Below are positions 11,571 through 32,745 of a stretch of DNA of 35,452 nucleotides, in pieces (positions within the stretch are counted from its first letter, which is position 1; every line of letters starts with the position of its first letter). Location: the IMG/VR virus record IMGVR_UViG_3300021085_000103, positions 1-35,452 of that record; one strand, written 5' to 3'. The translations under genes and the position numbers were made by a program. Origin of the DNA: a virus. The notes beneath the pieces are model-generated. The model worked only from the letters and a program-made list of their open reading frames with translations, had not been told where the DNA came from and did not search any database.

Positions 11571-11800
11571 GCAAAAATGATATAACAGGTGACGAGATCG
11601 TGACAGGTGCTGTGACTGAAGCCTATCGGTCTGGATGGGATAGGATATTTGGCAGTAAGATTGACAGTGATCGAACAGATCATGGCAACTCTATCAAACG
11701 CGATTATCAAGGCGATAGCGGAGGATTTCACTCGCGCACAATTAGTTCAGATGAGGCAAGCGGCTGTGGCTGCGGTCATGAAGGATCTTCCGAGAGTTGA
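11567..11800 (+). CDS. Small overlapping ORF after the terminase
   Basis: This is a 77-codon frame whose ATG overlaps the terminase stop (ATGA). The first 38 residues (DEIVTGAVTEAYRSGWDRIFGSK) look protein-like. The second half overlaps the next gene by 119 bp and is Ser/Gly/Asp-rich without structure. It may be a real small gene with a long overlap, or only leader sequence for the gene at 11682. Confidence 0.3.
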   Translation: MSKNDITGDEIVTGAVTEAYRSGWDRIFGSKIDSDRTDHGNSIKRDYQGDSGGFHSRTISSDEASGCGCGHEGSSES

Positions 11801-11972
11801 GATCACAGGGGCGAACTATGATGTGGGTGGTCAGTCTGGAGAATTTATACAAGGGAAGCCTAGAGATGTTGTCGAATACGCACAAGCTGCCATCGATTAC
11901 ATTGACAGCACTGTGAAGCGTAACAATAACGTGGTCTTTGGTGATTTTTCAAACCGCCCGGCTGGCTGGTAA
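11682..11972 (+). CDS. Small head-module protein (gpW-position)
   Basis: This is a 96-residue protein from the ATG at 11682, preceded by TTGACA at 11661, the recurring late-gene motif. It has a helical N-terminus (IIKAIAEDFTRAQLVQMRQAAVAAVM) and a polar tail with YAQAAIDYID. Its place between terminase and portal is that of the gpW-type head completion protein, but the sequence is not diagnostic. It ends next to the portal gene. Confidence 0.55.
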   Translation: MATLSNAIIKAIAEDFTRAQLVQMRQAAVAAVMKDLPRVEITGANYDVGGQSGEFIQGKPRDVVEYAQAAIDYIDSTVKRNNNVVFGDFSNRPAGW

Positions 11973-11993
11973 TTGACAGTTGCTGATCATGGC

Positions 11994-13472
11994 ATGGCAA
12001 AACGTGGAACGCGAGGAGGTAAAAAGCACAAGGAGCGCAAGGCGGCGGAATCTGTAAAAAAGGATCTGCTTAAGGCTGTTGACCTCAATGTGGGCAACGG
12101 ATTTGGTAATGGTTGGAGCGCGGCAACACCTAGTGAGCGCCGTGGGTATGTTTGGTGGCCTAATTTGGATACCAGTAAAGAGTTACCCCCGCACACTCGT
12201 CTTGAAATACTAAGAAAAGCGCGCTGGGCGGATGCTGAAGTTGGGCTGGTTCGTCGTGCGGTTAGTGGATTGGCTGATTTGGTTGGCTATCAAAAGCCAC
12301 AGGCGGAAACAGGTGATCCTGAATGGGATCAACTTGCTGAGGATGCTGTTTTGAGAAGATGGGATAATCCTTTGGCTTTCGATCAGGCGGGTAAGATGGA
12401 TGCCTGGTCATGGCAAGTTGCTTTGACTCGATGTCGATTTCGTGATGGGGATAACCTGACAGCTTTAGGAAGCACGCAATCGGGTGGTGCTACTATGCAG
12501 TTCTATGAGTCGCATCAAATAGACAGTGGTGATAAGACAACAAAGAATTTAATTGATGGTGTTTATCTAGGGCGAGGAGGTAAGCATACAGGATATAATA
12601 TAGTTGGCTCTAATTTAGATGGTGAGAAAACTAACAAGAAACTTGGGGCTAGAGATGTTATATATCATGCTGACTTTGAAAGGCCCGGTCGTATCAGGGA
12701 GCCGTCCAAGCTGGCACATGCGATAAGCAACATTGTTGATATTTTAGAGATCCTTGCGGATACAAAGCATGGTATCAAAATTGCGGCGCAGCTTGGAGTG
12801 GTGATGACTACTCAGGCGGGTAGTGGAAATTCACAAATGTCTGAAACCTTAGCTAGTTTTCTTAGTAAGCAGGGAGTCGGAACAAATTCTGATGGTGATG
12901 ATGTAGAAATTAATCTCGATGAAATTATGAGAGGTGGTCGCAGTCAAAGCCTCCCGGCTGGTGCTGACATGAAGACCTTACAGGATTCGCGACCACATCC
13001 AAACCAGTTGGATTTACTTCGATGGCTTGTGCGCGACATAGCGTGGGGTGCTGGAGTTGCGCCTGAAATATTATGGGAGCAAGCTGGATTAGGTAGTGCC
13101 GCTACTCGTTACCTCATGGCGGAAACTCGCAGATGGATTGAGAATCAGCAGCGTGTTCAGCGTTACGCTTGTCAGCGTATGTGGACATACACCTTGGCTC
13201 AGGAGATCAAGGCGGGTCGTGTGCCTAAGCCGACAAGCGATAGGTGGTGGTCGTGCAAGTGGATACCACAGGCTGACATGACGATTGATCGTGGGCGGGA
13301 TGGAGCCTTGGAGATAAAGCAGATTGAAAAAGGATTGCTGACCTATCAGGAGTCTTATGCCAAGCGTGGTAAGGATTGGCAGGAAGAGATGCGACAACTT
13401 GCTAAGGAAAAGGCGTTGATGGTTGAACTTGGCATATCTGGTGATGATTTGAACACAGGTAAAAATTTATGA
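11994..13472 (+). CDS. Portal protein (lambda GpB type)
   Basis: This is a 492-residue protein from the ATG at 11994, preceded by TTGACA and 15 nt. The basic N-terminus, TRLEILRKARWADAEVGLVRRAVSGL, the RDGDNL segment and the WLVRDIAWGAGVAPEILW helix region are typical of lambda-family portals. The dodecameric portal forms the DNA channel between head and tail and docks the terminase. It is followed with a 4-bp overlap by the SSB-tip protein. Confidence 0.85.
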   Translation: MAKRGTRGGKKHKERKAAESVKKDLLKAVDLNVGNGFGNGWSAATPSERRGYVWWPNLDTSKELPPHTRLEILRKARWADAEVGLVRRAVSGLADLVGYQKPQAETGDPEWDQLAEDAVLRRWDNPLAFDQAGKMDAWSWQVALTRCRFRDGDNLTALGSTQSGGATMQFYESHQIDSGDKTTKNLIDGVYLGRGGKHTGYNIVGSNLDGEKTNKKLGARDVIYHADFERPGRIREPSKLAHAISNIVDILEILADTKHGIKIAAQLGVVMTTQAGSGNSQMSETLASFLSKQGVGTNSDGDDVEINLDEIMRGGRSQSLPAGADMKTLQDSRPHPNQLDLLRWLVRDIAWGAGVAPEILWEQAGLGSAATRYLMAETRRWIENQQRVQRYACQRMWTYTLAQEIKAGRVPKPTSDRWWSCKWIPQADMTIDRGRDGALEIKQIEKGLLTYQESYAKRGKDWQEEMRQLAKEKALMVELGISGDDLNTGKNL

Positions 13473-13729
13473 GTAATAAGTATAGCCACGACATAGTGGC
13501 GACAGTTGGGAGTTATGTTGATAGCTCAGGGCAAGATAAAAAGCGTTACCAAAAAGTTGGAGCAGCTTTCACTGATGATGAGGGTCGGATCTCGTTAAAG
13601 GTCGATGCTGTTCCCTGTTCGCCTCAATGGTCGGGGTGGTTGTCTTTGTATCCCAAAAAACAAGAGTTGCAGTCGCCTGCCCCAAATACGGATCCTGTTC
13701 GGGATGGTCAGGATGACATTCCGTTTTAG
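13469..13729 (+). CDS. Small protein with an SSB-like acidic C-terminal tip
   Basis: This is an 86-residue protein ending in QDDIPF, the same ending as the partner-binding tip of bacterial single-strand DNA-binding proteins. The body (RYQKVGAAFTDDEGRISLKVDAVP) looks like a short beta-rich fold resembling small SSB-like or uncharacterised plasmid and phage proteins. It sits between portal and protease, where such a protein is not expected. It might recruit host repair or replication enzymes to phage DNA. Confidence 0.5.
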   Translation: MSNKYSHDIVATVGSYVDSSGQDKKRYQKVGAAFTDDEGRISLKVDAVPCSPQWSGWLSLYPKKQELQSPAPNTDPVRDGQDDIPF

Positions 13730-13755
13730 CGCATTTGACGCGCGGGCTTCACGTT

Positions 13756-14976
13756 ATGGCTAATAAAACATGGTTCTCTATTGAGGCTCGCGGTGGAGGC
13801 GAGGGTAAGCCCCAAACGGCGGCTATCGAAATTTATGACGAAATTGGTGGCTGGGGAGTTTCAGCCGCCGATTTTAAAAAGGAACTGAGTTCCTTGGGGG
13901 AGGTAGATGGCATTGAGTTGTCCATACATTCTCCCGGTGGTAGCGTGTTAGATGGGTGGGCAATCTATAATTTAATTAAAGGATCAAAATCTCATGTGGT
14001 TGCAAAGATCGATGGTCTTGCTGCAAGCATGGCAACGGTAGTGGCTATGGCTGCTGATGAGGTTCATATGCCCGAAAACGCTTTTTTCATGGTTCATGAT
14101 CCTTCTGGATTCGCTGTAGGAGGTGCTGAGGAGATGCGTGAGTATGCAGATCTTTTGGATAAGATGGAGGCTGGCATCAGAGCGGCTTACGTTGGTAAGA
14201 CAGGACAAAGTGAGGAGGTCATCGACAAGCTGATGGCCGAAGAAACTTGGCTCACTGGTTCCGAAGCTAAGGAACTAGGATTTGTCGATGTGGTTACTGA
14301 TGCTTTGGAGATGGCGGCTCTCAACGGTGCGGTAACAGCGTGTGCTGAGGATCTTAAAAAAGCTGGTCTTAACATACCTGTGGCTGATGCGATGATCATA
14401 GAGGCAGTGGCAGAACAGGAGGCCGAAGAAGCTGAAGAAGCTGAAGAAGTCGAAGAAGTCGAAGAAGTCGAGGAAGTCGAGGAAGTCGAGGAGGCCGATA
14501 AAGTCGAGTGCTGCTTGCCGGCCGATCAAGACGAAACAGATTTAGATGAGTATGGTGAGTTAATCACTGAACCATCAAAAGACGAGCCAATGGGGTTCGT
14601 TGAAAAGGTTAAAGCTGCGATCATTGGTCGCGGTGGTTCTGATGCGCTGGCAGAGTCTGCCAAGCTGCGCGGAACTATTAATTCATTGGAGGCTAAACTA
14701 GCTGACAGTGAGCATGCTCTTAATGAAGTGCGCGAGGAAGTCGCAGCAAAAGTTAATGAGCTAACAGCACTACGCGCCGATCAGGCGAGCGTGTTGGATC
14801 TCGTTACCGAGGCAGGGTTCGCGCCTGATGTGGCTGCGTCTATGCCTATGCCTGACGGCGGTGATGGGGATGAGATCAAGGCAGCGGAAGCAGCACTTGC
14901 TGATGCTGAAACAAAAGGCGGAAGAGAAGTTTATGCAGCGGTCAAACGCTTGCAAGATCTCCGCAATCAACAATAA
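13756..14976 (+). CDS. ClpP-like head maturation protease with scaffold-like tail
   Basis: This is a 406-residue protein from the ATG at 13756, preceded by TTGACG and 15 nt. Residues 1-185 are a ClpP/S49-type serine protease with HSPGGSV, Ser91 in DGLAASMAT and His114 in MVHDP. Residues about 215-255 are an acidic repeat of E-E-A/V units encoded by a 9-bp DNA repeat. Residues 290-406 are coiled coil (LRGTINSLEAKLADSEHALNEV), typical of scaffolds. Protease and scaffold are thus one chain, as in several lambda-like phages. It directly precedes the capsid gene. Confidence 0.85.
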   Translation: MANKTWFSIEARGGGEGKPQTAAIEIYDEIGGWGVSAADFKKELSSLGEVDGIELSIHSPGGSVLDGWAIYNLIKGSKSHVVAKIDGLAASMATVVAMAADEVHMPENAFFMVHDPSGFAVGGAEEMREYADLLDKMEAGIRAAYVGKTGQSEEVIDKLMAEETWLTGSEAKELGFVDVVTDALEMAALNGAVTACAEDLKKAGLNIPVADAMIIEAVAEQEAEEAEEAEEVEEVEEVEEVEEVEEADKVECCLPADQDETDLDEYGELITEPSKDEPMGFVEKVKAAIIGRGGSDALAESAKLRGTINSLEAKLADSEHALNEVREEVAAKVNELTALRADQASVLDLVTEAGFAPDVAASMPMPDGGDGDEIKAAEAALADAETKGGREVYAAVKRLQDLRNQQ

Positions 14977-14999
14977 CTACAAATATATAGAATAATATT

Positions 15000-15920: not shown

Positions 15921-15931
15921 CATTTATCATT

Positions 15932-16168: not shown

Positions 16169-16192
16169 GCTTTACGGCTTGTATTAACAGTG

Positions 16193-16226
16193 ACTGACCT
16201 AGCTACGGCTAGGTCAGTTTTTTTTT
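16193..16226 (+). terminator. Rho-independent terminator after the capsid genes
   Basis: A perfect 11-bp stem (ACTGACCTAGC / GCTAGGTCAGT) with a 4-nt TACG loop is followed by a run of nine T at 16218-16226. It would separate highly expressed capsid transcripts from downstream connector genes. Confidence 0.92.
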
Positions 16227-16250
16227 GGCTTTGACATGGTGGCTATTTGT

Positions 16251-16568
16251 ATGGACGAGGGTTATCGTAGTTTTTTGACTAAAGGACAGGCTTTTTTGGA
16301 GGATTTGTTTGGCGGGCAACTTGTGTGGAACGGTAGAAATTATTCTTGTGCTAATTCTGGATCTCGTAATGGCGATCAGCTTGAGGACGGCGGTTTTGTC
16401 GAAGTTGGCAATCGAAATGTTAGGATCTTGAAAACTTCTATGGTAGCTCCCCCGGTTATAGGTGAGCTAATGTTTCTTAACGATCAGGAGGTTCGTTTGG
16501 TCGAGATCGGTGATCGCGAGTGGGATGTGGCTTGGCATTTGCAATTTCAACCAGTTCGCGGAGAATGA
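16251..16568 (+). CDS. Head-tail connector-like protein
   Basis: This is a 105-residue protein from the ATG at 16251, preceded by TTTGACA and 14 nt; an ATG at 16236 is also possible. It is beta-rich with an ending (NDQEVRLVEIGDREWDVAWHLQFQPV) typical of small head-tail joining proteins of the gpFII type. It overlaps the next start by 4 bp. Confidence 0.6.
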   Translation: MDEGYRSFLTKGQAFLEDLFGGQLVWNGRNYSCANSGSRNGDQLEDGGFVEVGNRNVRILKTSMVAPPVIGELMFLNDQEVRLVEIGDREWDVAWHLQFQPVRGE

Positions 16569-17230
16569 GGGTTAAAGTCACGATTAGCGATAAAGAGATC
16601 AATAAGCAGCTAAAGAAGCTGGCTAAAAAGGCTGGCCTAGTTAATAATGATTTTGTTGATTATGCTGCGGGTGTAGCGCAGAGGCGGGTCGTGATGAATG
16701 TGCAACCATTTGGCCCGCCTAGTAAAAAGGGTAAGCCTAAATCATTAGGTGAGGGTGCGGTGAAGAAGAGCTTATTCAATGCTTTTCAGGTGGTATCGAA
16801 TAGCTACACAGGTAGTGATTTGGTTAGCGGTTTAAGTGAGATGCACCAGTTGCATCAAAGAGCAAGAAACAGCCGAGGTCGTGTTGGTCATAAAAGGGCG
16901 AACCGACCCAAGGTGAAGTATTCTACATTTCAAACTTACATGCAAAAGGTTATGGACAAGGTTGGGATGGCGAAAGGTGGATTCGCAGATAAGAGCGGTC
17001 AGTTGGATAATGGTCGAATCCCGGTATGGGTTAAGCGACATTCTGGTGAGGGAACTGCAACTAGGAAAGAGAAGCATCATGTTGCTGAGTGGAAATTTGC
17101 AAATGACAAGTCTTACACCAAAGATGGATACGTTATGGGGGCTTCTAATTTGGACAAGGTGCTTAAGGGTCAGCAAAAGTTTTTAAAGAAGAGCTTGGAG
17201 GGTAAGCTGAGGCGAATGGGTAAGCTTTGA
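16565..17230 (+). CDS. HK97 gp10-like tail completion protein
   Basis: This is a 221-residue basic protein from the ATG at 16565, which overlaps the previous stop. The N-terminus (ISDKEINKQLKKLAKKAG) and length fit tail-completion proteins of the HK97 gp10 or lambda Z kind. The many Lys and Arg residues fit a position near DNA at the connector. Its TGA lies inside the TTGACA motif of the next gene. Confidence 0.6.
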   Translation: MRVKVTISDKEINKQLKKLAKKAGLVNNDFVDYAAGVAQRRVVMNVQPFGPPSKKGKPKSLGEGAVKKSLFNAFQVVSNSYTGSDLVSGLSEMHQLHQRARNSRGRVGHKRANRPKVKYSTFQTYMQKVMDKVGMAKGGFADKSGQLDNGRIPVWVKRHSGEGTATRKEKHHVAEWKFANDKSYTKDGYVMGASNLDKVLKGQQKFLKKSLEGKLRRMGKL

Positions 17231-17246
17231 CATTAGCTGTTTTATT

Positions 17247-17696
17247 ATGACTACGAGTGATAGAGTTCTAGCTGTTTTGGCTGAGTGGATTGTTGAACAG
17301 GGCATGCTACCCGCTGATGTGTATCCGCGCCTACGTGACTACGATGGTAAGAAGGGGGCGCTAGAAGTATATTTAGATGCTGATGACCCGGTTGAGCATG
17401 AAGTGTTGAGGGGTGTTGATACTATTTCTGGAGAGATTGTGGTTGATGTTAGCGTTGATGATACTACTCAAGATGAGCGTCAAGCATTGTTGAGCTACAT
17501 TGCTACATCATACGATGTGGATAATTTCATGTCCTGGGCAAATGATCCTAGCGAAGATAGAGGTTTGCTTGCTGGTGAGGATGTTAAGATTTACGACATA
17601 CGGATTACTCTTGGCGGATCATGGGGTGTTGATGGGCGTAGGCAGAGGGGTAGGATTGATTGGGAGGTAGTAGCCTCACCAATGGTTGCCATTTGA
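17247..17696 (+). CDS. Tail terminator-like protein
   Basis: This is a 149-residue acidic protein preceded by TTTGACA and 14 nt. The pattern of a helical N-terminus (VLAVLAEWIVEQG), a central beta region and the end IYDIRITLGGSWGVDGRRQRGRIDWEVV is typical of lambda gpU-type tail terminators that cap the tail tube. Its position before the tube gene agrees. Confidence 0.55.
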   Translation: MTTSDRVLAVLAEWIVEQGMLPADVYPRLRDYDGKKGALEVYLDADDPVEHEVLRGVDTISGEIVVDVSVDDTTQDERQALLSYIATSYDVDNFMSWANDPSEDRGLLAGEDVKIYDIRITLGGSWGVDGRRQRGRIDWEVVASPMVAI

Positions 17697-17716
17697 CGGT
17701 AAGCTTACCTGTTATT

Positions 17717-18100
17717 ATGGCAGCAATCGTATATGGAGATATTAATTTTGGAATGGCCGCAGAATCTGGCCTTTACGTGGAGTCTGTAGACTTCGATACA
17801 TCAGTGGACACAGTTTTCATTGGAGATGAGCAAGGGGCAGATGTTGCTGGTGCAACATTCAATCCTTCAGCTTCTTTTTCGATTACAGGTTTTACTAACA
17901 CAGTTGGCAGTCTAACTGCGAAAACAGGTGAAAGTATTGTTTTGGCTAACGCTATTGATTGGGCAGATGTCTTGAGCAATGGTTATACAGGTGGTGGGCA
18001 AACTATCATTACTGGAGTCAAAGTCGGCTTGAACCACAAAAATGCGGAATCTAAAGATGTCAGCGGTATGTTCAAACCGTTTTTGGCAGCTTCCGCCTAA
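17717..18100 (+). CDS. Major tail (tube) protein
   Basis: This is a 127-residue protein from the ATG at 17717, with TTTGACG upstream. Upstream in-frame codons lie inside the previous gene. It is small, beta-rich and Gly/Ser/Thr-rich. It lies between the tail terminator and the chaperones and ends in front of a strong terminator, the usual arrangement for an abundant tube protein. There is no diagnostic motif. Confidence 0.65.
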   Translation: MAAIVYGDINFGMAAESGLYVESVDFDTSVDTVFIGDEQGADVAGATFNPSASFSITGFTNTVGSLTAKTGESIVLANAIDWADVLSNGYTGGGQTIITGVKVGLNHKNAESKDVSGMFKPFLAASA

Positions 18101-18114
18101 TTAAATTTAAAAAC

Positions 18115-18151
18115 AGCGGGGTAGAGGGAGTTGTCCCCTGCCCCGCTTTTT
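18115..18151 (+). terminator. Terminator after the tube gene
   Basis: AGCGGGG (18115-18121) pairs with CCCCGCT (18141-18147), with an inner AGGG/CCCT helix and five T at 18147-18151. It ends right at the next ATG (18152), so readthrough rather than a new promoter may feed the chaperone genes. Confidence 0.85.
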
Positions 18152-18966: not shown

Positions 18967-19190
18967 GCGATCCGGCTCCTTGGCTGGCATCTTATGTAGC
19001 TAGTTTAGTTAGGTTGAGTGGGTGGAGTTGTGACTACATCCTGTGGATGCTGCCATACAGCACAGGATTGCAGTTGCTGCATGCCGAGTCGATCTACAAT
19101 AATAATGCGGTTGAGTATGTAATTGCTCGCACAGCCAATCCTGATACGGGGCTGGCCGCGCAATTTGACAAGATGAGGTCTAAGGATTGA
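18930..19190 (+). CDS. Tail assembly chaperone, T part (made by -1 frameshift)
   Basis: This 86-codon frame has no convincing start codon of its own at its head and is open from the slippery run to the TGA at 19188. After the slip the sequence reads SGFRPPVAHEEVSDPAPW, then helices (LASYVASLVRLSGW, YILWMLPYSTGLQLLHAE) and an acidic-basic tail. The full fusion from 18580 would be about 203 residues. In lambda the G-T fusion is made at a few percent and binds the tape measure. The tape measure follows 16 bp later, as expected. Confidence 0.8.
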   Translation, partial: SGFRPPVAHEEVSDPAPWLASYVASLVRLSGWSCDYILWMLPYSTGLQLLHAESIYNNNAVEYVIARTANPDTGLAAQFDKMRSKD

Positions 19191-19206
19191 CAACGCTAGA
19201 CGCATC

Positions 19207-22062
19207 ATGGCTGCGGGTTTAACATTTTCGATTAAGGGTGATTCGACTGGTTTTGTATCGTCTGTAAAAAAAGCCGAAAAATCAATAGGTAGTCTTACGG
19301 ATAAGGTTCGGGGTTTTGGTTTTGGTAAGCTTAGTGCTGGTTTTAATAAGGCATCAGCATCGTTAAATTCTTTTGCTAGATCTAGTCAGCAGAAGTTGTC
19401 GTTAGCTAAGGAGGTTGCGAAGCTTGATAAAAATCTGAGCGATTTAAGCAAGCGTAAGGCTAAGGTTAATATAGATCTTAAGAGTGCTAAGGCTTTAGCT
19501 AAGTTTAAGGATTTGCAGGCTCAAATGCGGGTGTTGCAATCAAAGCCTATGACGGTGAAGATTGCGGCACAACAGCGTGATTTAATTACCAAACTTAAGT
19601 CGGCTAAAACAAGAATCCGAACTTTTCAAAAAGACGGTGCAGTTGTTAATTTAAGATTAAATGCAAAACAGGCGCTTGGCAGGGTGAAGGTCTTTGAAGG
19701 ACAGTTAAAGCGCATAAAAAGTAAGACGATAGTTCTGAAGGCCAAACGCAATAACGTCTTGCCTCAATATAAATCTGATTTGGTTTCTATCAAAGTGGCT
19801 GCGGCAGCAATAAAATTTGTTGGCTTTGATAAGTTGAAGCGTAAATACCCGGCTTTGGATAATGTTGCGTCTGGTCTTAAGAAGGTTGGTGTAGCTGCTG
19901 CGGGGAAAACGGCTGCGGGTCTTACTAAAGCAGCTAAGGCTATGGACTTTTTGGCAAAATCATCAAAGAGGGCTATACTCAATAAGTCTATAGCGGTTGG
20001 AGCCGTGGTGTCTTTGAAGTCATTGAAGGGTGCAGCTACTGTAGCTGGTCAGGCTATAGGCAAGTTGGCACGTAAGATGAAGTCTTTGGGGTCTGCTGGT
20101 TCTTCTGGTTTGAGTGCTTTTAAGAACATGACTTTTACTGCCTTTAAAGCTGGTGCTATTGCCGCTACGGCAGCAGTGGCTGGATTGGTTATAGCTATAA
20201 AATCGGCGGTATCAAATGCCTCAAACTTAGAAAACCTTGGAGTTGCTTTTACGGCGATTACAGGTAGCGCCACTGGTGCGGCAGATCTAATTGGTCACTT
20301 GCGTGAAGAAAGTAAGAGAACTGGTGTTGAGATAGGCTCGATGGCTACGATGGTTCGTAGACTTATGGCAAATGGCATGGATGTTACCGAGGCTAAGAAG
20401 ATGACATCCTCTTTGTTGGATATATCTGGAACGCTTGGACTTGGAACTGAGGAGGCAAAGTTGCTAGGTATTGCTATCTCACAGGTTCAGGCTAAGGGAG
20501 TTGTGTCGATGGAGGAGCTTAGGCAGCAAATTGCTGAGAAGGGTGTGCCTGTTTTTGATGTTTTAGCTCAGAAACTAGATGTCACTAAAGGTAAGTTGAT
20601 GGAAATGGTCGCTAATGGCGAGGTCGGAGCGGAAGTATTGATGGAAGCTTTTTCAAATCTTGAGGGTCCATTGGCTAAGTTTAGGGGCGGTGCTGAAAAA
20701 ATGGCTATGACCGCTCAAGGATCTTTCAATCGGCTTAAGGCTACCATAGCAGATGTGTTTGCTGATGCTGGAGCGCCGTTGCTTGACGGTTTGGCGGCGG
20801 GTCTTAATGTAATCACTAATAAGATTATTGAGATGGGTTCTAAGCTGAAAGCTTATGCAGAGGCGGCTGGGGTTTTTGTGCGAACTATGGCCAAGGCTTT
20901 TCAGCAAGGTAAGATGGGTGAGGTATTAAAACTTAGCTTAGTTGCTGCTGCAAAAGAGTTTGTGAATCGTATGTTTGCAGGTCTTAAAACTGCGGTTTCT
21001 TTTACAACAATGGCCATTATTGAAGGTGTTAAATCTGCGTTCAGTAAAGTAACTGATATGAATTTCTGGGTTGGGGTTGTTGAAATTTTCAAAAGTGCTT
21101 GGACTCTGTTGAAGGCTGTAGGTTTGGAGGTTGTGGCGGCTATGCCTGGTAGTGGTGACGCACAGAGAAGGGCTGCTGACTCTGCTTTCAGTTTGTCTAG
21201 GGCGCAGTTTGGTTTTGGTATGAGGCAAATGGAAAGGGCTGGCGATGGTCAGTCTATAGGTGGCATCTTGAGTACCGCTCTTGAGGCTGCTTTGGGTGAG
21301 TATCAAGAGGCTATGAACAATCCATTGTTGAACAACACAGATGAACTTGAGCGGTTGAAGCAAATTTATGAAGAAATGCGTAAACTTGCTGAAGAAGATA
21401 AAAAGAAGCGACAGGATGCGATGAATGAAATTGCGCCGCCTGATGAGTTTAAGCGCAAACCTAAAGAGGAAAAAGGTGGGGTTGTGGGATTCATTAAGCC
21501 TATTGTTACGTCTATGCAGCGAATTGGTGGAGCTTCCATCAAGGGGGTCACAAACAACCTAAATAAAACTAGAAACGATCTATTGCAGAAAATGGCCAGT
21601 TCGCTTGAGATTATAGAAAAGAAGGATGCCGTTGGTGATAAAAAGGATGCAAAGGGTTTTACCGAGCGAAAAATCACGGATGCTGACCTAAAGGATATGA
21701 CTATCGAAAAAAAGGTGGCCAAGGTGGTGGGTAAGGCGAGCGGCTCAAATATTGGTAGTGCTATAAACTCCATCACGGATGAAATACTCAACATGATGCC
21801 AAAGAAGAAGGATTCTGGTGTTAGTAAAAAAGATCAGGGTGTCGGGGCTAAGGTGGCTGGAGTTGTGGGCAAAGCTGTAGGCTCAAGTATACGCCCGGCT
21901 ATTGGCACAGTTAATGATGCTATGAAGAAGATGATGCCGAAGCAAAATGATCCTGTAGCTAATGCTGATCCATTTTTAAAGCTAGATGAACAACGTAATG
22001 CTTACCTGAAAAGTATAGATTCTCAGATAAACAAAATTGGTGGTCCCGCTGTTTTTGGCTAG
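19207..22062 (+). CDS. Tape measure protein
   Basis: This is a 951-residue protein preceded by TTGACA and 14 nt. It has a Lys/Ala-rich coiled N-terminal 250 residues, a hydrophobic stretch at about 310-335 (AGAIAATAAVAGLVIAI), and a conserved tape-measure domain with AFTAITGSATGA, GTEEAKLLGIAISQVQAKG and SMEELRQQIAEKGVPVFDVLA. It ends with repeated modules of the form KVVGKASGSNIG...INSITDEILNMMPKK. Such proteins set tail length and enter the host membrane during DNA injection. Confidence 0.9.
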   Translation: MAAGLTFSIKGDSTGFVSSVKKAEKSIGSLTDKVRGFGFGKLSAGFNKASASLNSFARSSQQKLSLAKEVAKLDKNLSDLSKRKAKVNIDLKSAKALAKFKDLQAQMRVLQSKPMTVKIAAQQRDLITKLKSAKTRIRTFQKDGAVVNLRLNAKQALGRVKVFEGQLKRIKSKTIVLKAKRNNVLPQYKSDLVSIKVAAAAIKFVGFDKLKRKYPALDNVASGLKKVGVAAAGKTAAGLTKAAKAMDFLAKSSKRAILNKSIAVGAVVSLKSLKGAATVAGQAIGKLARKMKSLGSAGSSGLSAFKNMTFTAFKAGAIAATAAVAGLVIAIKSAVSNASNLENLGVAFTAITGSATGAADLIGHLREESKRTGVEIGSMATMVRRLMANGMDVTEAKKMTSSLLDISGTLGLGTEEAKLLGIAISQVQAKGVVSMEELRQQIAEKGVPVFDVLAQKLDVTKGKLMEMVANGEVGAEVLMEAFSNLEGPLAKFRGGAEKMAMTAQGSFNRLKATIADVFADAGAPLLDGLAAGLNVITNKIIEMGSKLKAYAEAAGVFVRTMAKAFQQGKMGEVLKLSLVAAAKEFVNRMFAGLKTAVSFTTMAIIEGVKSAFSKVTDMNFWVGVVEIFKSAWTLLKAVGLEVVAAMPGSGDAQRRAADSAFSLSRAQFGFGMRQMERAGDGQSIGGILSTALEAALGEYQEAMNNPLLNNTDELERLKQIYEEMRKLAEEDKKKRQDAMNEIAPPDEFKRKPKEEKGGVVGFIKPIVTSMQRIGGASIKGVTNNLNKTRNDLLQKMASSLEIIEKKDAVGDKKDAKGFTERKITDADLKDMTIEKKVAKVVGKASGSNIGSAINSITDEILNMMPKKKDSGVSKKDQGVGAKVAGVVGKAVGSSIRPAIGTVNDAMKKMMPKQNDPVANADPFLKLDEQRNAYLKSIDSQINKIGGPAVFG

Positions 22063-22088
22063 GCTGTTGACAGATCTCATCGTTATGT

Positions 22089-22847
22089 ATGAGTAATGTT
22101 AATTTTTATGGCTCGCGTGGGAAGCTGGTCAAAAACTGGAATATCTCAATCGAGAGGACTAAGGAAAAAATCTGGACGGTGGTTCAGACTTATCATTGCC
22201 ATAGAGATGATGCGGTAAGATTGATGCCACGGATAGGGGCTAGGCATCCAGATTTCAGTTTTGTTAAGCTTGAGGATGTTAATGTATCTGGAATGGAGGG
22301 TGATTGGGTTGATATGCAAGCCCGGTATGTAGGAATTGATCCTGATGATGAGGCTTATACAAGGGGCTTAAGGATGAATACAGGCGAGGAGCATGTGGCA
22401 ACAAATCGTTATTTTAGTGATGTTCCTGAAGATGATAGAAATGAGGCGGTCAAGCTTGCAACGCAACCTCCTAAAAACAAAGATGGTTCGGTTAAAGTAA
22501 TCGATATCACAGGTTGGGACTTGATAGGTGGTGATGGTGGAGATCGTGGCAATAAGCTAGAGTTGTATGAGATGATTCAGGGTGGTATTGAGGCTTACTT
22601 AGAGCCGCGCATTGAGTTTTTTCATCGTTATGGTTCTGAGGAAATGCCTGATGATTTAAACAATATAGGAAAGCGTGGTGATGTTCCTGAAGGATCTCCT
22701 CCAATTAATTCGGAGCGTGAATGGTTGTTTACAGGTTACAATATCACTGAAAAAGCTAAGGACGTTTTTGACATAGAAAAAACGTGGTTGTTGAGTGGTC
22801 CTGGTGGTTGGAATGAAAAGCTTTATCCCGGTGTAGTAGCACAATAG
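22089..22847 (+). CDS. Distal tail structural protein (unrecognised)
   Basis: This is a 252-residue acidic protein preceded by TTGACA and 16 nt. It follows the tape measure, where distal tail and tip proteins are found. Trp- and Tyr-rich ends suggest a beta-rich fold. No family motif is visible. It is 4 bp from the Ser-Gly-rich gene. Confidence 0.55.
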   Translation: MSNVNFYGSRGKLVKNWNISIERTKEKIWTVVQTYHCHRDDAVRLMPRIGARHPDFSFVKLEDVNVSGMEGDWVDMQARYVGIDPDDEAYTRGLRMNTGEEHVATNRYFSDVPEDDRNEAVKLATQPPKNKDGSVKVIDITGWDLIGGDGGDRGNKLELYEMIQGGIEAYLEPRIEFFHRYGSEEMPDDLNNIGKRGDVPEGSPPINSEREWLFTGYNITEKAKDVFDIEKTWLLSGPGGWNEKLYPGVVAQ

Positions 22848-22851
22848 GACT

Positions 22852-25857: not shown

Positions 25858-27278
25858 TGGGTTTTTGGATAGATCCAGACGGTAATGGTGTTTTCATACC
25901 TGATTGTGATCCTTTGCCTTGGGATCCAAGTAAGAATGGCGCTGGTGAACCTTATGATCCTAACGACCCGGCTTGCGTTGGGGGTGGTGGTTCTGGATCG
26001 GTTTATGGTAGCAGTAAGAGTAGTTCTAGTAGTAGTAGTTCTGCGTCTAGCTCAAGTAGCTCAAGTAGCTCAAGTAGCTTAAGTAGCTCAAGTAGCTTAA
26101 GTAGCTCAAGTAGCTCAAGTAGCTCAAGTAGCTCAAGTAGCTCAAGTAGCTCAAGTAGCTCAAGTAGCTCAAGTAGCTCAAGTAATTCAAGTAGCTCAAG
26201 TGCTTCAGGTAGTTCAGTTTCGTCTGGTGGTGATTGTCCTAAGTATTGTGCCTTGTTTGATTATGGTGGGGTTAAATATCCAGTCACTTTTACAGGCGTA
26301 TATGTCCCCGATTTATACTTCAGTGAAGAATTAGGTATGTATGTTGGGGGATGTGTTTTTTCAAGTCCTCCCGGTGTGTCCCCTTTTTACACGATGCAGC
26401 AAGCTGGTGATGGCGTGTGGGTGTTTAGAAATTCACAAGGTGAAGTTTTCGGAACAAGTGATAGCCCGGTTGGTGAATTTAACTCTAAAGTTGAATTTTT
26501 TGATGATGAGTGTCCACCAGATTCTTCTGGCTCTCCACCGCCTCCGCCCCCACCACCATCATCCTCATCAGGATCATCATCCGGTGGTAATTCGGGTTGT
26601 ATCTGTGTGCGTTGGTATAAAACAGACGATCCAGATAATGAGGATGAACAGGGTGAAGATAGTCAGTGTAGTGACCTTGTAGATCTTTGTCTTATGATCC
26701 CTCCTGGCACTCCTTGTGATGTTAAGGGTTATAACTTTTTCATACTGGGTGGCCCACTTGATAACAGTAGCTTGGTGATCGAGACAGAGGGTCCAAATGC
26801 TCCACGAAAGTATTTTCGGTCTGGTGAAATCATTGAAGGTAGCTGGGATTATGGTCAGGAAATTGTTAGAGGTGATTACACATATACCATATCAGATGGT
26901 GAATGTGATTCTTCATCTAGCTCTAGCTCTAGCTCTGGCTCTGACCCTTGTTGCACCCCAAGTTCTGCGGATGCGTTTTTCGAGTTCTATCATTTTTATG
27001 CTAACCGTCAAGTAACAGTCAACACAAGCCTTGGTAGGAGTGGGTGTAATAGGTATGTAGCAGAAAGTCCCCTTTTTGAAAATTGTGGTGGCTATTATCA
27101 GTCAAAAGAATGGTTTATAGATATAGTTTACGATGGGACAAGCTGGAGGGCTACCCTTGGCACAGAGTGCTTTGCTGCCATCTACCAGTTTACAGGTGGA
27201 AATGATCCTTGTAATCCATCAGGTGAATATACACCTGACAGTAATTTTAGTAATGGAGAATTGACCGTAACTGTATAA
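25857..27278 (+). CDS. Poly-Ser modular tail protein
   Basis: This is a 473-residue protein whose ATG overlaps the previous TAA. A short Pro/Asp-rich N-terminus (1-40) leads into an almost pure Ser tract (about 50-125). Cys-marked modules follow: one from CPKYCALF, one from CICVRWY after a PPPPPPPP-SSSS linker, and one from DPCCTPSS after a short Ser run. The module-and-linker plan matches the preceding gene. The Ser tract could carry O-linked glycans or sulfate. A sulfotransferase begins 5 bp after the stop. The role as a tail or fibre component is inferred from position. Confidence 0.65.
   Translation: MGFWIDPDGNGVFIPDCDPLPWDPSKNGAGEPYDPNDPACVGGGGSGSVYGSSKSSSSSSSSASSSSSSSSSSSLSSSSSLSSSSSSSSSSSSSSSSSSSSSSSSSSSSNSSSSSASGSSVSSGGDCPKYCALFDYGGVKYPVTFTGVYVPDLYFSEELGMYVGGCVFSSPPGVSPFYTMQQAGDGVWVFRNSQGEVFGTSDSPVGEFNSKVEFFDDECPPDSSGSPPPPPPPPSSSSGSSSGGNSGCICVRWYKTDDPDNEDEQGEDSQCSDLVDLCLMIPPGTPCDVKGYNFFILGGPLDNSSLVIETEGPNAPRKYFRSGEIIEGSWDYGQEIVRGDYTYTISDGECDSSSSSSSSSGSDPCCTPSSADAFFEFYHFYANRQVTVNTSLGRSGCNRYVAESPLFENCGGYYQSKEWFIDIVYDGTSWRATLGTECFAAIYQFTGGNDPCNPSGEYTPDSNFSNGELTVTV
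26049..26201 (+). repeat. Seventeen 9-bp tandem repeats (Ser-Ser-Ser-coding)
   Basis: Seventeen units of AGCTCAAGT or close variants (AGCTTAAGT, AATTCAAGT) encode three Ser each, with occasional Leu or Asn. All copies keep frame, so changes in copy number would alter stalk length without breaking the gene. Confidence 0.9.
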
Positions 27279-27283
27279 AAAGC

Positions 27284-27874
27284 ATGAGTAGTATTTATAT
27301 ACATATACCCAAAACCGCTGGCACTAGCGTGGCTTTTGCTATGGGGGTTGGTAGGAATCATTACACGTATCGTGACTTGAAAGATGATGGTCGGCTTGTG
27401 GGTAATTATGTCTTTACATGTGTTAGGAATCCTTATGATCGAGCGGTTAGCTGTTACTATTACATTAAGCATATTGTTCAGCTTGCTAAGTCAGAGGGGC
27501 GCAGTTTCCCTCATTTCATAGACGATGCAGTAGATGTTAGTGATTTTTGGGCAAATTATACAAGTGGCAATCGTTTTGAAATGTTATTCAACAATGTTAT
27601 CTATTTAAAGCCTCAGTATAAGTGGCTTGAAAATGATTATTCTGGTTACGTGTCGAATAGGATCGATTTTATAATGAGGTATGAAAACTTGGCCGCTGAT
27701 TGGTCACACATACAGGATCTTTTTGGGTATCAAGACTTGGGCAAGGAGAATGAGTCGGTGCTACGCGCTGGGCAAAATTGGGGAGATGTTTTATCCCATG
27801 ATGCTAAGTTGAGAATTAGCTCATTATATGCGCAGGATTTTGCAAGGTTCGGCTATTCTGATGCTGAGGTTTGA
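27284..27874 (+). CDS. Sulfotransferase (PAPS-dependent, Sulfotransfer_2-like)
   Basis: This is a 196-residue protein with the two PAPS-binding signatures of carbohydrate sulfotransferases: the 5'-phosphosulfate loop HIPKTAGTS (7-15) and the 3'-phosphate site VRNPYDRAVS (47-56). His26 in NHYTYRD is in the place of the catalytic base of heparan-type 2-O enzymes. The C-terminal RYENLAADW and LYAQDFARFGY are also typical. It should transfer sulfate from PAPS to a sugar or other hydroxyl in the cytoplasm. It lies directly after the poly-Ser tail gene and before a glycosyltransferase. Few phages are known to carry such a gene. Confidence 0.85.
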   Translation: MSSIYIHIPKTAGTSVAFAMGVGRNHYTYRDLKDDGRLVGNYVFTCVRNPYDRAVSCYYYIKHIVQLAKSEGRSFPHFIDDAVDVSDFWANYTSGNRFEMLFNNVIYLKPQYKWLENDYSGYVSNRIDFIMRYENLAADWSHIQDLFGYQDLGKENESVLRAGQNWGDVLSHDAKLRISSLYAQDFARFGYSDAEV

Positions 27875-27891
27875 CAATCGGTAACTGGTGG

Positions 27892-28698
27892 ATGAGTAAT
27901 GAAAATAGCGTAGTTGGGTCAGTGAATAGGGCTGATGGAAGTTTGGATAGGCAAAGCCCTGGTGCTGGTGTTGCTTCGGTAGACCAAGGACAAGCAAAGA
28001 GTAAGGTTAATTTGTATGATTACTTTTCTGATGTTCAGGTTGTGCATCTTGAAAAGTTTCCGCAGAGATGGCTCAGGTTTGAGGAGAGGGCAAAGGCTGT
28101 TGGTGTTTCTGGTTATAAGAAGTTTAAGGCGGTGCTTGGTGATGCAGCTAATCCTCCGATTTGGTGGAGGGCTGGTAATGGCGCATGGGGATGTATGATG
28201 AGTCATTTACATATCGTTCAGAATTATTTAACTCGCGGTGATGATGGTCATCTTTTGGTTTTTGAAGATGATGCTCTTTTTTCTGAGGACTTTGCTCAAC
28301 GATTGCCTGAGATCATGGAAGAGGTTGGGGATGATTGGGATATGCTTTACTTTGGAGGTCAGCATTTACACACGCACAGGCACAGGCCGTGGAAGTGCAA
28401 AGATAATAAGAATGTAATTAACGCTTATAACGTAAATCGGACGCATGCTTTTGCTGTAAATAAAAGATTCGCTGTGAAGTATCAGCAACATATTATTCAT
28501 GCCCCGGACTATATTGATTATAATTGGGTAGCGCATGTTGATCATCAGTTAGGAGTTCTGCATGAAAAGGGGCAGTATAAGATTTACGCTGTGACTCCTT
28601 GGATCAATGGTCAAGCCGCTGGTAAAAGTTGGACTTGTGGTCGTGAAACAAATGATCATTGGTGGCAGATCGAGCCAAAGCAGATTGTTCACAAGTGA
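27892..28698 (+). CDS. GT25-type glycosyltransferase
   Basis: This is a 268-residue protein from the ATG at 27892, preceded by TTGACA and 15 nt. Residues 1-45 are a polar, disordered leader. The GT25 (LPS glycosyltransferase) domain follows: VVHLEKFPQRWLRFEERA, GAWGCMMSHLHIVQNYL and the metal-binding FEDDA at 124-128, then WDMLYFGGQH. GT25 enzymes add galactose or glucose in LPS, and related domains modify collagen hydroxylysine. It stands between the sulfotransferase and a second glycosyltransferase. Confidence 0.8.
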   Translation: MSNENSVVGSVNRADGSLDRQSPGAGVASVDQGQAKSKVNLYDYFSDVQVVHLEKFPQRWLRFEERAKAVGVSGYKKFKAVLGDAANPPIWWRAGNGAWGCMMSHLHIVQNYLTRGDDGHLLVFEDDALFSEDFAQRLPEIMEEVGDDWDMLYFGGQHLHTHRHRPWKCKDNKNVINAYNVNRTHAFAVNKRFAVKYQQHIIHAPDYIDYNWVAHVDHQLGVLHEKGQYKIYAVTPWINGQAAGKSWTCGRETNDHWWQIEPKQIVHK

Positions 28699-28789
28699 AG
28701 TCCTAAAAAGTAAACGCAGTTTGCGTTATTAATTATGGCAAAAAATATACATTAAACTTGTGTAGGAGTTGACATACGTCAGACAAGCT
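28699..28789 (+). promoter_or_regulatory. Intergenic leader with small hairpin
   Basis: This 91-bp gap holds a 6-bp hairpin (AACGCA-GTT-TGCGTT, 28713-28727) and ends with TTGACA 15 nt before the next ATG. There is no T-run, so it is not a clear terminator. Confidence 0.35.
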
Positions 28790-29404
28790 ATGAGCAAGAT
28801 ATTGCATCAAGTCTGGATTCAAGGGGAGAGTGAACTACCACAAGAGTATATTAAATCTAGGTCTAAGTGGCGTGAAGACCTCCCAGATGATTGGGAGATG
28901 ATGCTTTGGGATAATAACATGGCGCGTGAGAAGTGGCATGACTATAAGGAGGTCGAAGCCTCTTGCAGCTCGCACGCTATGCGAGGAGACTTAATTTTGG
29001 CTCGCGCTCTTCGTGATTACGGCGGATTAGCCTGCGGTGCAGATGTTATCCCTAACAATATACCTGATCTGCTGAATTTTGTATCCAGCACTGATACTAT
29101 GATTGTGACCAATCCAAAGGGTAAGGCTTGCTCAAATGGTATTACATGGTTTCGTGATGTTGAGCATGAGTTTTGTTCGTGTGTTTGTAGATATCAATTA
29201 CTTTACCGTGACAAGCTCCCAACTGGCAATGTTTGGCATCTAACGGGTCCTGGTGCGTGGTGGGGCGCACTCGCAGTTGGACAATGGAACTTGACTATGG
29301 TTACAGATCGAAAAGCCTTTACTCACTTATGTAGAGATATAGGAAAAGAGGCTTCAAATCCCGAAGGATGGGTAAATCCAGTCTACGCGGGTAGTTGGCA
29401 TTAG
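28790..29404 (+). CDS. GT32-like glycosyltransferase with altered DxD
   Basis: This is a 204-residue protein from the ATG at 28790. The start KILHQVWIQGE and the region RGDLILARALRDYGGLACGADV (helix then metal site, ending at residue 86) match capsular or mannosyl GT32 enzymes. In those the site is usually YGGIYLDTDV. Here the first Asp of DxD is Gly and only Asp85 remains, so metal binding may be changed or activity lost. Cys is unusually common. It probably acts on a sugar nucleotide together with the neighbouring enzymes. Confidence 0.7.
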   Translation: MSKILHQVWIQGESELPQEYIKSRSKWREDLPDDWEMMLWDNNMAREKWHDYKEVEASCSSHAMRGDLILARALRDYGGLACGADVIPNNIPDLLNFVSSTDTMIVTNPKGKACSNGITWFRDVEHEFCSCVCRYQLLYRDKLPTGNVWHLTGPGAWWGALAVGQWNLTMVTDRKAFTHLCRDIGKEASNPEGWVNPVYAGSWH

Positions 29405-29405
29405 T

Positions 29406-29927
29406 ATGAGTAGTATAGATAAATACCAAGAACGGTATCTTGCTCATCAAGCAAGGAAGAAGGATGTTCTTATCGAGATAGTCAGGCAAAGGCATAGCAA
29501 TAGGATGTTTGCACCAGAGCCTGTGAGTGATAAAGATATTAATGAGTTATTGATGGTGTGTGATTTTTGTCCATCATCGTGTGATAGGTTGGGTATTGAT
29601 AAGGTCGTGGTAAATGGGAGGGATGATAAGAATCTCTTAGGTGGTTTGCTTGTCGGTGGTGTTGGTTGGATTCACAGGTCTTCACACATCATACTTTTAT
29701 TTGCAGATAGAGTTGCTTACAAGGCGGGTGATGAAGTCGGGTTCATGCCTTACTTAGATGCTGGGGTGGTAATACAGCAACTTTACCTAACGGCTACCAG
29801 CATGGGTCTTCATTGTGCTTATGCGAACCCCAACATTAGGGAGAGGCACAGGGTATTTATGGAGGATCTTTATGGTGATCGTATATTTTGCGGTGCTTTT
29901 GCAGTTGGGCATCCTTTTGAATCATGA
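29406..29927 (+). CDS. Nitroreductase-family flavoprotein
   Basis: This is a 173-residue protein with nitroreductase-fold signatures: the FMN-phosphate-binding RQRHSNRMFAPEPVSD (about 26-41) and the helix DAGVVIQQLYLTATSMGLHC, followed by an Asn-Pro-Asn loop. Family members use FMN and NAD(P)H to reduce nitro groups or quinones, or to oxidise peptide heterocycles. The protein is at the short end for the family. Its role inside a glycosylation and tail-fibre block is unclear. It starts 1 bp after the GT32-like gene. Confidence 0.75.
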   Translation: MSSIDKYQERYLAHQARKKDVLIEIVRQRHSNRMFAPEPVSDKDINELLMVCDFCPSSCDRLGIDKVVVNGRDDKNLLGGLLVGGVGWIHRSSHIILLFADRVAYKAGDEVGFMPYLDAGVVIQQLYLTATSMGLHCAYANPNIRERHRVFMEDLYGDRIFCGAFAVGHPFES

Positions 29928-29954
29928 CTGCGATTGACGCGATGATATCAAGTT

Positions 29955-31727
29955 ATGCGCTTCTATTACGATCTTGATCTGGGTCAGTTAGTTCAGACCC
30001 CCGGCTACCCCAATCCACTAAATATCGTTGATTTCAAAAGGGGTGATGCTGCGGAAATTAGGCTTGGATTTTATGAGGGTGGTCGGCAAGTTTCGATAGG
30101 ATCTTCGGCTGTTTTAGAGTTCGCTTTAAAACCAGTTGGCAAATATGATCTCGACCCTGTTGTTTCGAGTGATGATTGGACTTACGGCGGTGATGAGACT
30201 CCTGAGTATATCTGTAGTCCATCATTTAACACCATAGCTCTCAACGCACTATTTAATCATGCTGATGCTGATTACGAGAATGATATCAGTAGTGTTGATC
30301 TCATGTTTGAAATTACGTGGAGCGTTGATCTTGGTATTTCATGGGTATCTACAGATACAATTACGGCGCGTGTCTATAATGATGTGATCAAGGGTATTGA
30401 GGGTGTTCCTTTACAGGGTCCACCAGCTTACCCTACCTCTGCTGTAATACATAATTTGACAGATAACATAACCGTCACTGAGCCAATAAATCTGGATACA
30501 TTAGAAGGTCTGCAAGGCCCAGCGGGTGCAGATGGAGCAACAGGCCCAGCGGGTGCAGATGGAGCGACAGGCCCAGCGGGTGCAGATGGAGCGACAGGCC
30601 CAGCGGGTGCAGATGGAGCAACAGGCCCGGCTGGTGCTGATGGTGCTGATGGTACTGACTCAACTGTGCCTGGTCCACAAGGCCCAGCGGGTGCTGATGG
30701 TGCAGACAACGCAACTCTCGATTCTGTCACCAGCAACGGAGCAACTACAACCAATGATATTACTGTAGGAAATCGCATCATAACTGGCAACAATGTAGCC
30801 AGTGGTGCAACAGCTACAGCCATAGGGGGGCAAAACAATACAGCTAGTGGTCAAAGTGCTGAGGTTCTAGGAGGTGATGGTTCGACTGCTAGTGGTCAAG
30901 GCTCAAGTGTGATTGGTGGTAGTAATCACCAAAATGCAGCAAACTGGACAGCTACAGTTGGAGGTTTGAATCAAACAGTTGCAAGCGGAGCAGCTAGGGG
31001 TGCTATTTTGGCGGGTTTTGGTCACAATTTGAATCACTCTGATTCTGTAATTATTGCTGGAAACACCATAACGTCAGACGCACCCAATACAGTTTTTGTT
31101 CCGAACCTAAATGTTAAAGACGGATTTAAGATGCCAACAGGCGCAAGCGATGGTGAAGTTCTAACCACTGACGCGAATGGCGTAGGCACATGGCAACCCG
31201 CTTCGGGTGGTGGTGGCGGTGGCTCAAGCGTTGTGGCGAGTTATTACGATGATGCTCTTGTTCTCGCTAAAACAACTGGTGCAAACGAAATCTACGACAT
31301 CACAGGTCTATCCTATGCGATGACTGCGGGCAAGATGTATCATGTAAAATGCTACTACTGGCACTCCAGTGGCGGTTCTACTCTTTCGGGAGGTTCTAAT
31401 AGCTGGCCAGCTAGTGCATCTTACTGCGATCTTGGTTTTATTCCTTGGGGTAATACTGATGGGGTGAGGCAGGGGTTTCAGGGCTGGTGGGGTGACGATA
31501 ACGCAATCACACCAAGCAATACTTTTTCATACGCTCCGTGGGCTTATAATGCGACAAAACACCAATGCGATTTGGGTTATTATGGCTATAATGGATGGGC
31601 AAGGCTTGAGGGTATCTTCACTGCTCCTACAAGCTCAACCTTTACCCCTACCATCACCATTTATGGGGATCATAATGCAGGATCACTTACGGTTGCATTT
31701 CAAGGTGTCATCCATGAAATCGGATAA
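29955..31727 (+). CDS. Collagen-like tail fibre with YadA-head-like repeats
   Basis: This is a 590-residue protein preceded by TTGACG and 15 nt. Residues 1-185 form a beta-rich N-terminal domain suited to tail attachment. Residues about 188-255 are Gly-X-Y repeats (GPAGADGAT units), so this part should be a collagen-like triple helix. Residues about 270-350 hold YadA-head-like repeats ([26 protein letters not shown]). A Gly-rich linker then leads to a Trp/Tyr-rich C-terminal domain (about 425-590), the likely receptor-binding part. A trimeric fibre is inferred. Confidence 0.85.
30516..30623 (+). repeat. Four 27-bp repeats coding for collagen-like GPAGADGAT
   Basis: Four nearly identical 27-bp units each encode three Gly-X-Y triplets, followed by diverged copies to about 30708. 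The low divergence suggests recent expansion. Confidence 0.9.
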
Positions 31728-32254
31728 TGAAAACTTACGTCATTAGCTTAAAGGAAAGATCGGACAGGCGGGAGAAGTTCTCCCTGCCTTTTGATTATGA
31801 GTTTCTTTTGCAAGACAGGGTGACGGGAGTTCATGGTGTTCGTTGGTGTTTGGCAAACCTTGGTTGTATGCTTGGTCATAGGCAAGCAATCCAACTAGCA
31901 AAAGAACAAGGGCTGGACGAGGTTCTTGTTCTGGAGGATGACGCTAAATTAGAGAATGGGATTCCAAATAAAATGCCCCATGCTGTCACTTTTCTAGGTG
32001 GTGATAAACATCATGGTTATATCGTCGGTAGCCATGCTGTGTATTACCATTCATCCTCATTTGACCCTCTACTTGAGTCATTACCAACACTTGAGCAGTT
32101 ACAAGATTCAAAGCATCCACCGATGCTTGACCCCTACGACTTATGGCTAAGTCGGCAAGGAGTGGGGTATGCAAATTCATTCATTTCTTTTGATGAAGAA
32201 AACGGAGACATCCCCCACGGAGGTAAAATCAAACAAGAACTATTAACAGCATAA
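31727..32254 (+). CDS. Second GT25-like glycosyltransferase
   Basis: This is a 175-residue protein whose ATG overlaps the fibre gene's stop. It starts KTYVISLKERSDRREKF, has GCMLGHRQAIQLAKEQG and the metal site LEDDA (E70-D71-D72), and ends with a DLWLSRQG segment, all typical of GT25. It is much shorter than the first GT25 protein and resembles compact phage forms. Its coupling to the fibre gene suggests that the fibre, or a glycan displayed on it, is the acceptor. Confidence 0.7.
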   Translation: MKTYVISLKERSDRREKFSLPFDYEFLLQDRVTGVHGVRWCLANLGCMLGHRQAIQLAKEQGLDEVLVLEDDAKLENGIPNKMPHAVTFLGGDKHHGYIVGSHAVYYHSSSFDPLLESLPTLEQLQDSKHPPMLDPYDLWLSRQGVGYANSFISFDEENGDIPHGGKIKQELLTA

Positions 32255-32258
32255 CATT

Positions 32259-32558
32259 ATGGAAAATGCAGAAGAACTATTGGCAAGACAATCGGCAGAT
32301 CATGAAGCATGGCTTAACAGAGTCCCTGACTCAGTAACAAACTATCAGATCAAACAAGCACTCAACACTGTCCCTCAAGATCGGACAGCCGTTGAAGCAT
32401 TGGTGGCTGCTAGTGAAGATCAGAACTTAATAGACGGCTGGAATCATGCAGCCAGCTTCAAGAAAGATCACGCATTATTTATTGGGGCTGTGGCACTACT
32501 TGGTTGGTCGCAGGAGAAGGTGGATGACTACCTCAAGCTTGCCGTTACCTTTGAATAG
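32259..32558 (+). CDS. Small tail-associated protein
   Basis: This is a 99-residue acidic protein. The segment VTNYQIKQALNTV resembles short proteins often found after tail fibre genes in lambda-like phages. The rest is helical. Its function is unknown; a tail or fibre-assembly role is inferred from position. Confidence 0.5.
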   Translation: MENAEELLARQSADHEAWLNRVPDSVTNYQIKQALNTVPQDRTAVEALVAASEDQNLIDGWNHAASFKKDHALFIGAVALLGWSQEKVDDYLKLAVTFE

Positions 32559-32580
32559 CTTTGACGTAACTGCTCATTGT

Positions 32581-32745
32581 ATGAAAGCGATTCTCAGTAG
32601 GCTCAAGGAGCCAAGCACTTGGAAAGGTTTAATTAGTCTAGCGGCTATCGCTGGCTGGCAACTAAACATGGCACAGGAGGAGCAGATTGTTGCAACGGCA
32701 CTTTCGTTAGTAGCACTCATCGAAGTTTTAAAAGTAGGTAAATGA
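32581..32745 (+). CDS. Small holin-like membrane protein
   Basis: This is a 54-residue protein from the ATG at 32581, preceded by TTTGACG and 14 nt. A start inside the previous gene in another frame is rejected. The sequence LKEPSTWKGLISLAAIAGWQL, followed by a second hydrophobic helix (IVATALSLVALIEVL), fits a small phage holin with one or two membrane helices. It begins the lysis cassette. Confidence 0.65.
   Translation: MKAILSRLKEPSTWKGLISLAAIAGWQLNMAQEEQIVATALSLVALIEVLKVGK

Follow-up and report, generated by a model that had tools for sequence, protein, structure and literature searches.

The late genes of the virus record IMGVR_UViG_3300021085_000103 (35,452 bases, analyzed at full length and called the window here) carry a short element, TTGACR, at a fixed distance upstream of their ATG start codons. 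The element goes with late genes that are not coupled to a preceding gene, is conserved in related viruses and is not a feature of the host genes that we sampled. With moderate confidence, we interpret UUGACR as an RNA-level, non-Shine–Dalgarno translation initiation element of the late genes that is read by a putative factor; action on RNA, the ribosome as the target and the existence of a trans-acting factor are what we infer from these patterns.

The genes of the window lie mostly in one direction. An early block encodes an excisionase-like helix-turn-helix protein, a ParB-like protein, a methyltransferase and a primase, and the landmarks beyond it are as follows.

9723-11570, large terminase
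11994-13472, portal
13756-14976, head maturation protease
15000-15920, probable major capsid gene
19207-22062, tape measure gene
32906, amidase
33747-34898, minus strand, integrase

The virus looks like a temperate tailed phage. Accessory enzymes are intermixed with the tail genes downstream of the tape measure gene, with a sulfotransferase, two family-25 glycosyltransferases and a nitroreductase at 27284-32254; for the gene at 28790, the sole match is a weak one, below the cut-off, to a glycosyltransferase domain. The non-coding left end (200-500) holds several copies of CTGACCA/TGGTCAG in direct and inverted orientation and may be an origin, partition or attachment region. The product of 8911-9261 resembles DnaA domain IV in a weak Pfam match (E 0.011), as does, judged by eye, the product of 1470-1862 in the related contig L014. 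The nearest cellular match of the window is a contig in a Chthoniobacterales (Verrucomicrobiota) bin, whose portal is 35% identical, and a search of 387 Verrucomicrobiota genomes returned 18 genes with strong portal matches (E 1e-32 or better). These matches therefore make a host in Verrucomicrobiota likely, although not proven. A second cellular match is a short contig in a Marinovum bin that is itself an IMG/VR virus entry.

A preliminary description of this DNA had listed 12 late genes with TTGACR 14 to 16 nt, and once 18 nt, before ATG, and we recovered every one of these sites at its position. They are given below with the neighboring features that bear on them.

11661..11684, plus strand, TTGACA-N15-ATG of gene 11682-11972, inside the overlapping reading frame 11567-11800; hexamer kept in L009 and L010
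11973..11996, plus strand, TTGACA-N15-ATG of the portal gene; an upstream TAA directly abuts the first T
13735..13758, plus strand, TTGACG-N15-ATG of the head maturation protease gene; kept in relatives
14977..14999, plus strand, A-rich leader without TTGACR before the probable major capsid gene; same in relatives
16192..16227, plus strand, intrinsic terminator (12-pair stem, then a T run) directly upstream of the element at 16231
16231..16253, plus strand, TTGACA-N14-ATG of gene 16251-16568
17227..17249, plus strand, TTGACA-N14-ATG of gene 17247-17696; the preceding gene ends with the hexamer's TGA
17693..17719, plus strand, TTGACG-N18-ATG of gene 17717-18100; the preceding gene ends with the hexamer's TGA
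19187..19209, plus strand, TTGACA-N14-ATG of the tape measure gene; second TTGACA at 19165
22067..22091, plus strand, TTGACA-N16-ATG of gene 22089-22847; kept in the L015 and L023 orthologues
27261..27286, plus strand, variant TTGACC-N17-ATG of the sulfotransferase-like gene 27284-27874; uncertain and outside the earlier list
27871..27894, plus strand, TTGACA-N15-ATG of the family-25 glycosyltransferase-like gene 27892-28698; the preceding gene ends with the hexamer's TGA
28769..28792, plus strand, TTGACA-N15-ATG of gene 28790-29404
29934..29957, plus strand, TTGACG-N15-ATG of gene 29955-31727, with a collagen-like repeat and probably a tail fibre
32561..32583, plus strand, TTGACG-N14-ATG of gene 32581-32745

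Among the 12 sites, the spacer from the end of TTGACR to ATG measures 14 nt in four, 15 nt in six, 16 nt in one and 18 nt in one, and all remaining distances up to 59 nt occur at one start each at most in the window. The comparison with shuffled sequence that had been proposed for this pattern revealed strong enrichment at 14-16 nt: the late region contains 11 plus-strand matches to TTGACR-N14-16-ATG, while 500 dinucleotide shuffles averaged 0.79 and never exceeded 5, and the presence of the element at 11 of 26 late starts corresponds to a Poisson P of about 1e-21 or less. The hexamer itself is not over-represented, with 27 copies in the window where 36 are expected. What is special about TTGACR is its position and not its abundance. 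The gene at 17717, which has a spacer of 18 nt (17 nt in L010, 8580-8605), possesses an in-frame ATT adjoining the ATG and 15 nt after TTGACG (14 nt in L010); this AUU may be the true start or the reference point for the distance. The two genes within 11567-11972 share 119 nt, read in different frames, and L009 and L010 retain both.

Use of the element follows gene arrangement. Across eight loci, we scored late starts as uncoupled when a gap of >12 nt separated them from the preceding gene and as coupled when the genes overlap or adjoin; the element stands at 55 of 84 uncoupled starts compared with 3 of 45 coupled ones (P = 2e-11), counts that come from a simple gene caller on related contigs and are thus not fully independent. 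Some of the 29 uncoupled late starts that lack the element are probably false genes. None of 12 uncoupled early starts has it (P = 1e-5 versus late). That early genes do without the motif, as first described, is true, but the contrast is partly due to coupling, with nearly all early genes overlapping or adjacent. The probable major capsid gene consistently has its A-rich leader in place of the element, in the window and in relatives, and accessory genes among the late genes, such as a glycosyltransferase gene, carry the element too.

Of 58 sites, 54 have 20 or 21 nt from the first T of TTGAC to the A of ATG; the distance from the upstream stop codon, by contrast, varies. In about 36 of the 58, this stop lies between 4 nt inside the element, where the TGA of TTGACR serves as the stop, and 6 nt before it, and the minimal intergenic unit therefore extends from TTGACR to ATG. 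Most remaining sites follow the previous stop by 16-240 nt, some of them directly behind an intrinsic terminator in the window (16192-16227) and in relatives. Some window sites lie inside the coding sequence of another gene or include its stop codon.

The same arrangement is conserved in related viral contigs with portals 39-91% and terminases 36-88% identical to those of the window. Over 19 loci, several of them close kin whose counts are not independent, 40 sites have a distance of 14 nt and 52 a distance of 15 nt, with 10 or fewer at each other distance up to 44 nt; the opposite strand displays no peak at 14 or 15 nt. The window group (the window, L010 and L013; 18 sites) and a marine group (47 distinct sites) each show the element on their own. 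In orthologous genes the hexamer is constant and the spacer sequence varies, as in the portal leader, which reads GTTGCTGATCATGGC in the window, GGTGCGGATCATTGC in L009 and GGCTGCGCCCGTGGC in L010; the element before this gene is also kept in L014, L016, L023 and L028. Strong conservation is limited to the 5-6 bases of TTGACR, and flanking information is slight, with T or C at position -1 in most sites and C or T at -6. An origin of the pattern in chance or in the picking of start codons has a negligible probability: it is refuted by the conservation in relatives, and the shuffle and coupling counts and the agreement of the chosen ATGs with the aligned, conserved protein N termini of relatives also speak against it.

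The fixed distance, the tolerance of 1-2 nt, the packing against stop codons and the absence from coupled genes would all be explained if the hexamer is read in RNA together with the start codon. At about 15-21 nt upstream of AUG, messenger RNA leaves the platform of the 30S subunit; a protein or an RNA attached to UUGACR could therefore hold the message on the ribosome there. We propose that UUGACR in late mRNA would let late genes initiate independently, without a Shine–Dalgarno sequence and without coupling, through a factor that contacts the initiating 30S subunit and recognizes the hexamer about 20 nt upstream of AUG. The candidate reader may be a late factor encoded by the phage or one from the host that host mRNAs do not often use. 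Overlapping late genes would be translated by coupling, making the element dispensable, and the major capsid gene would initiate via its A-rich leader. The suggestion that the motif might be an initiation element, a processing site or a regulator target holds as far as a link to initiation is concerned, given the fixed distance, the restriction to uncoupled late genes and the lack of a -10 box; the element may act on ribosomes, on an RNA-binding regulator or on RNA 5' ends.

An ordinary Shine–Dalgarno interaction does not describe these starts. Most of the genes had been said to lack such a sequence; none is evident on reading the 12 window spacers, and TTGACR itself neither pairs with CCUCC nor lies 4-9 nt from the start but too far upstream, while two genomes of the host phylum have a normal anti-Shine–Dalgarno sequence. 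Pairing of UUGACR with 16S rRNA elsewhere was rejected for want of a suitable complement: we found no fitting site in these two genomes, only the universal h34 GUCAA in one of them. The search for a reader among 11 related virus records yielded no phage bS21 and no S1-domain protein. The gene at 1606-2130, kept in four relatives, was considered as the trans factor and set aside, its structure prediction having an unusable pLDDT of 43 and the wider prophages containing no sequence match to it.

The main rival to a role in translation is that TTGACR forms part of a late promoter from which transcripts start at or very near the ATG, each uncoupled gene or pair being its own unit. TTGACA matches the -35 consensus of sigma-70, the element is missing from coupled genes as it would be inside transcription units, and some elements directly follow an intrinsic terminator, as at 16192-16227 and in relatives. 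The pyrimidine at -1 and the A at +1 are compatible with transcription starting at the A of ATG, and an 88-aa helix-turn-helix protein (1122-1388) weakly resembles sigma region 4. The geometry of a -35 box, however, would place the transcription start about 10-15 nt within the gene, and the claimed lack of a usable -10 was borne out: the sites within 11000-30900 have no such box at a spacing of 16-18 nt (that at 32561 was assessed by eye alone), and no site in that interval is among the promoter-like sigma-70 matches, which leaves these sites without a -35/-10 pair. No RNA polymerase is known to rely on a single element located 15-21 nt ahead of the start, and the families found among the early genes of the window include no RNA polymerase. 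Twelve promoters in 21 kb would also be unusual for the late region of a siphophage-type virus, and we regard the promoter as an unlikely explanation.

Recognition of UUGACR in RNA could also serve an end other than recruitment of the ribosome. A repressor protein, a small RNA or an endonuclease might target it and switch the late genes jointly, without the ribosome being the reader. The late-only use, the start-codon hairpins of the prophage group described below and the rarity of the complement of UUGACR in the late region (3 sites) fit such a target, but none of these agents needs a distance of 14-15 nt to ATG, UUGACR is present inside genes as well, and the window contains no Rfam RNA, tRNA or tmRNA. 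We therefore consider this account quite improbable. A DNA operator at which a phage repressor blocks transcription, like the stoperators of cluster A mycobacteriophages, would share the single orientation, the short intergenic regions and the many copies. Stoperators are asymmetric 13-bp sites at no fixed distance, whereas here 5-6 bases are conserved with little flanking information and the distance to the start codon, superfluous for a block of transcription, is held constant. An operator is accordingly very improbable; recognition in RNA is a better match for 5-6 conserved bases than an isolated operator in DNA.

More distant Verrucomicrobiota prophages, with portals 24-31% identical, have TTGACA 13-17 nt before ATG (24, 21, 9, 15 and 10 sites at 13, 14, 15, 16 and 17 nt, compared with about 3 at other distances). 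After removal of similar proteins, these starts fold with a mean free energy of -9.6 kcal/mol; shuffling the spacers raises it to -6.7 kcal/mol (z -8.1) and swapping them between sites to -7.2 kcal/mol (z -4.7), while 146 motif-free control starts from the same prophages give no hairpin signal (z +1.9). The stem sequences vary among sites, pointing to a structure that forms in RNA. At some of these starts (loci L053-L068) the ATG sits in or beside the loop of a 10-bp stem, as at site 3729 of L063. No hairpin signal emerged in the window or in its close and marine relatives (z about -0.8), and we dropped the hairpin as a component of the element in the window group.

Host genes do not share the arrangement. 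The proposal to look for the element in host genes was followed in 400 kb from two Verrucomicrobiota chromosomes, where these distances show no excess, and host-wide use was rejected on this ground; a count of the pattern in 59 genomes gave a few sites per genome at most. Phages of Synechococcus, Fusobacterium and Acidithiobacillus, hosts from three other phyla, lack the element. It is possible, and we put this forward tentatively, that Verrucomicrobiota phages possess a dedicated ribosome-recruitment code for late mRNAs, in which UUGACR about 15 nt before AUG would be bound by a new phage or host factor bridging mRNA to the 30S subunit, with a start-codon hairpin added in some groups.

Literature searches for the motif returned nothing specific. 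The nearest precedent is the start-associated sequences (SAS) of actinobacteriophages, described in cluster K mycobacteriophages (PMC3203893) and Microbacterium cluster EF phages (PMC7302621) as repeated, in one orientation and of unproven function. Like the present element, they occur in many copies in one orientation, are linked to start codons, are conserved within a phage group, are uncommon in host genes and have been proposed to act in translation initiation. They differ in being 13-bp sequences with a Shine–Dalgarno core (AGGAG, able to pair with 16S rRNA) located 3-7 bp from the start codons of non-structural genes; here only TTGACR is strongly conserved, at -20/-21, with no Shine–Dalgarno sequence and before structural (late) genes. 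The element is thus of the SAS kind, yet not a member of that family. The Microbacterium cluster EC and EG phages have motifs that likewise recur at a limited distance before start codons, 22-30 bp and 14-21 bp upstream, respectively (PMC7302621), but these are 18-bp or inverted-repeat motifs at a looser distance, and EC phages encode a sigma factor, which makes a promoter likely there. Initiation without Shine–Dalgarno sequences is known from the Kozak-like leaders of Bacteroidetes (PMC6847099) and from Verrucomicrobia, in part Shine–Dalgarno-scarce (PMC10783764), and the A-rich capsid leader of the window recalls them; such leaders are a general trait of host genes, whereas TTGACR, at -20, shows no enrichment among the sampled host genes. 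Leaderless genes of Deinococcus-Thermus also have a conserved DNA element near the start codon, but it is a -10 box adjacent to the open reading frame (PMC12340547), whereas the present hexamer is -35-like, stands at -20 and has no -10 partner.

Phages of Verrucomicrobiota have been little studied. Retained in relatives with terminase identities as low as 36-38%, the element offers a simple way into start-site choice by ribosomes (or RNA polymerase) in this group, and it helps to locate late genes and to correct start codons in these phages. Should the ribosome prove to be its target, the element would fall outside the Shine–Dalgarno, A-rich and leaderless classes of initiation signal, and the factor that recognizes it would be new to translation. 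The Akkermansia phage Moulinsart (L092) has 6 sites at 13-17 nt where about 2 are expected, mostly off annotated gene starts. At 2788, 4643 and 15317 it also has a repeated leader, AAAGAGACGG(C/T)(G/A)GGGA, 20-41 nt upstream of three late starts, which may be a separate start-associated sequence of another Verrucomicrobiota phage.
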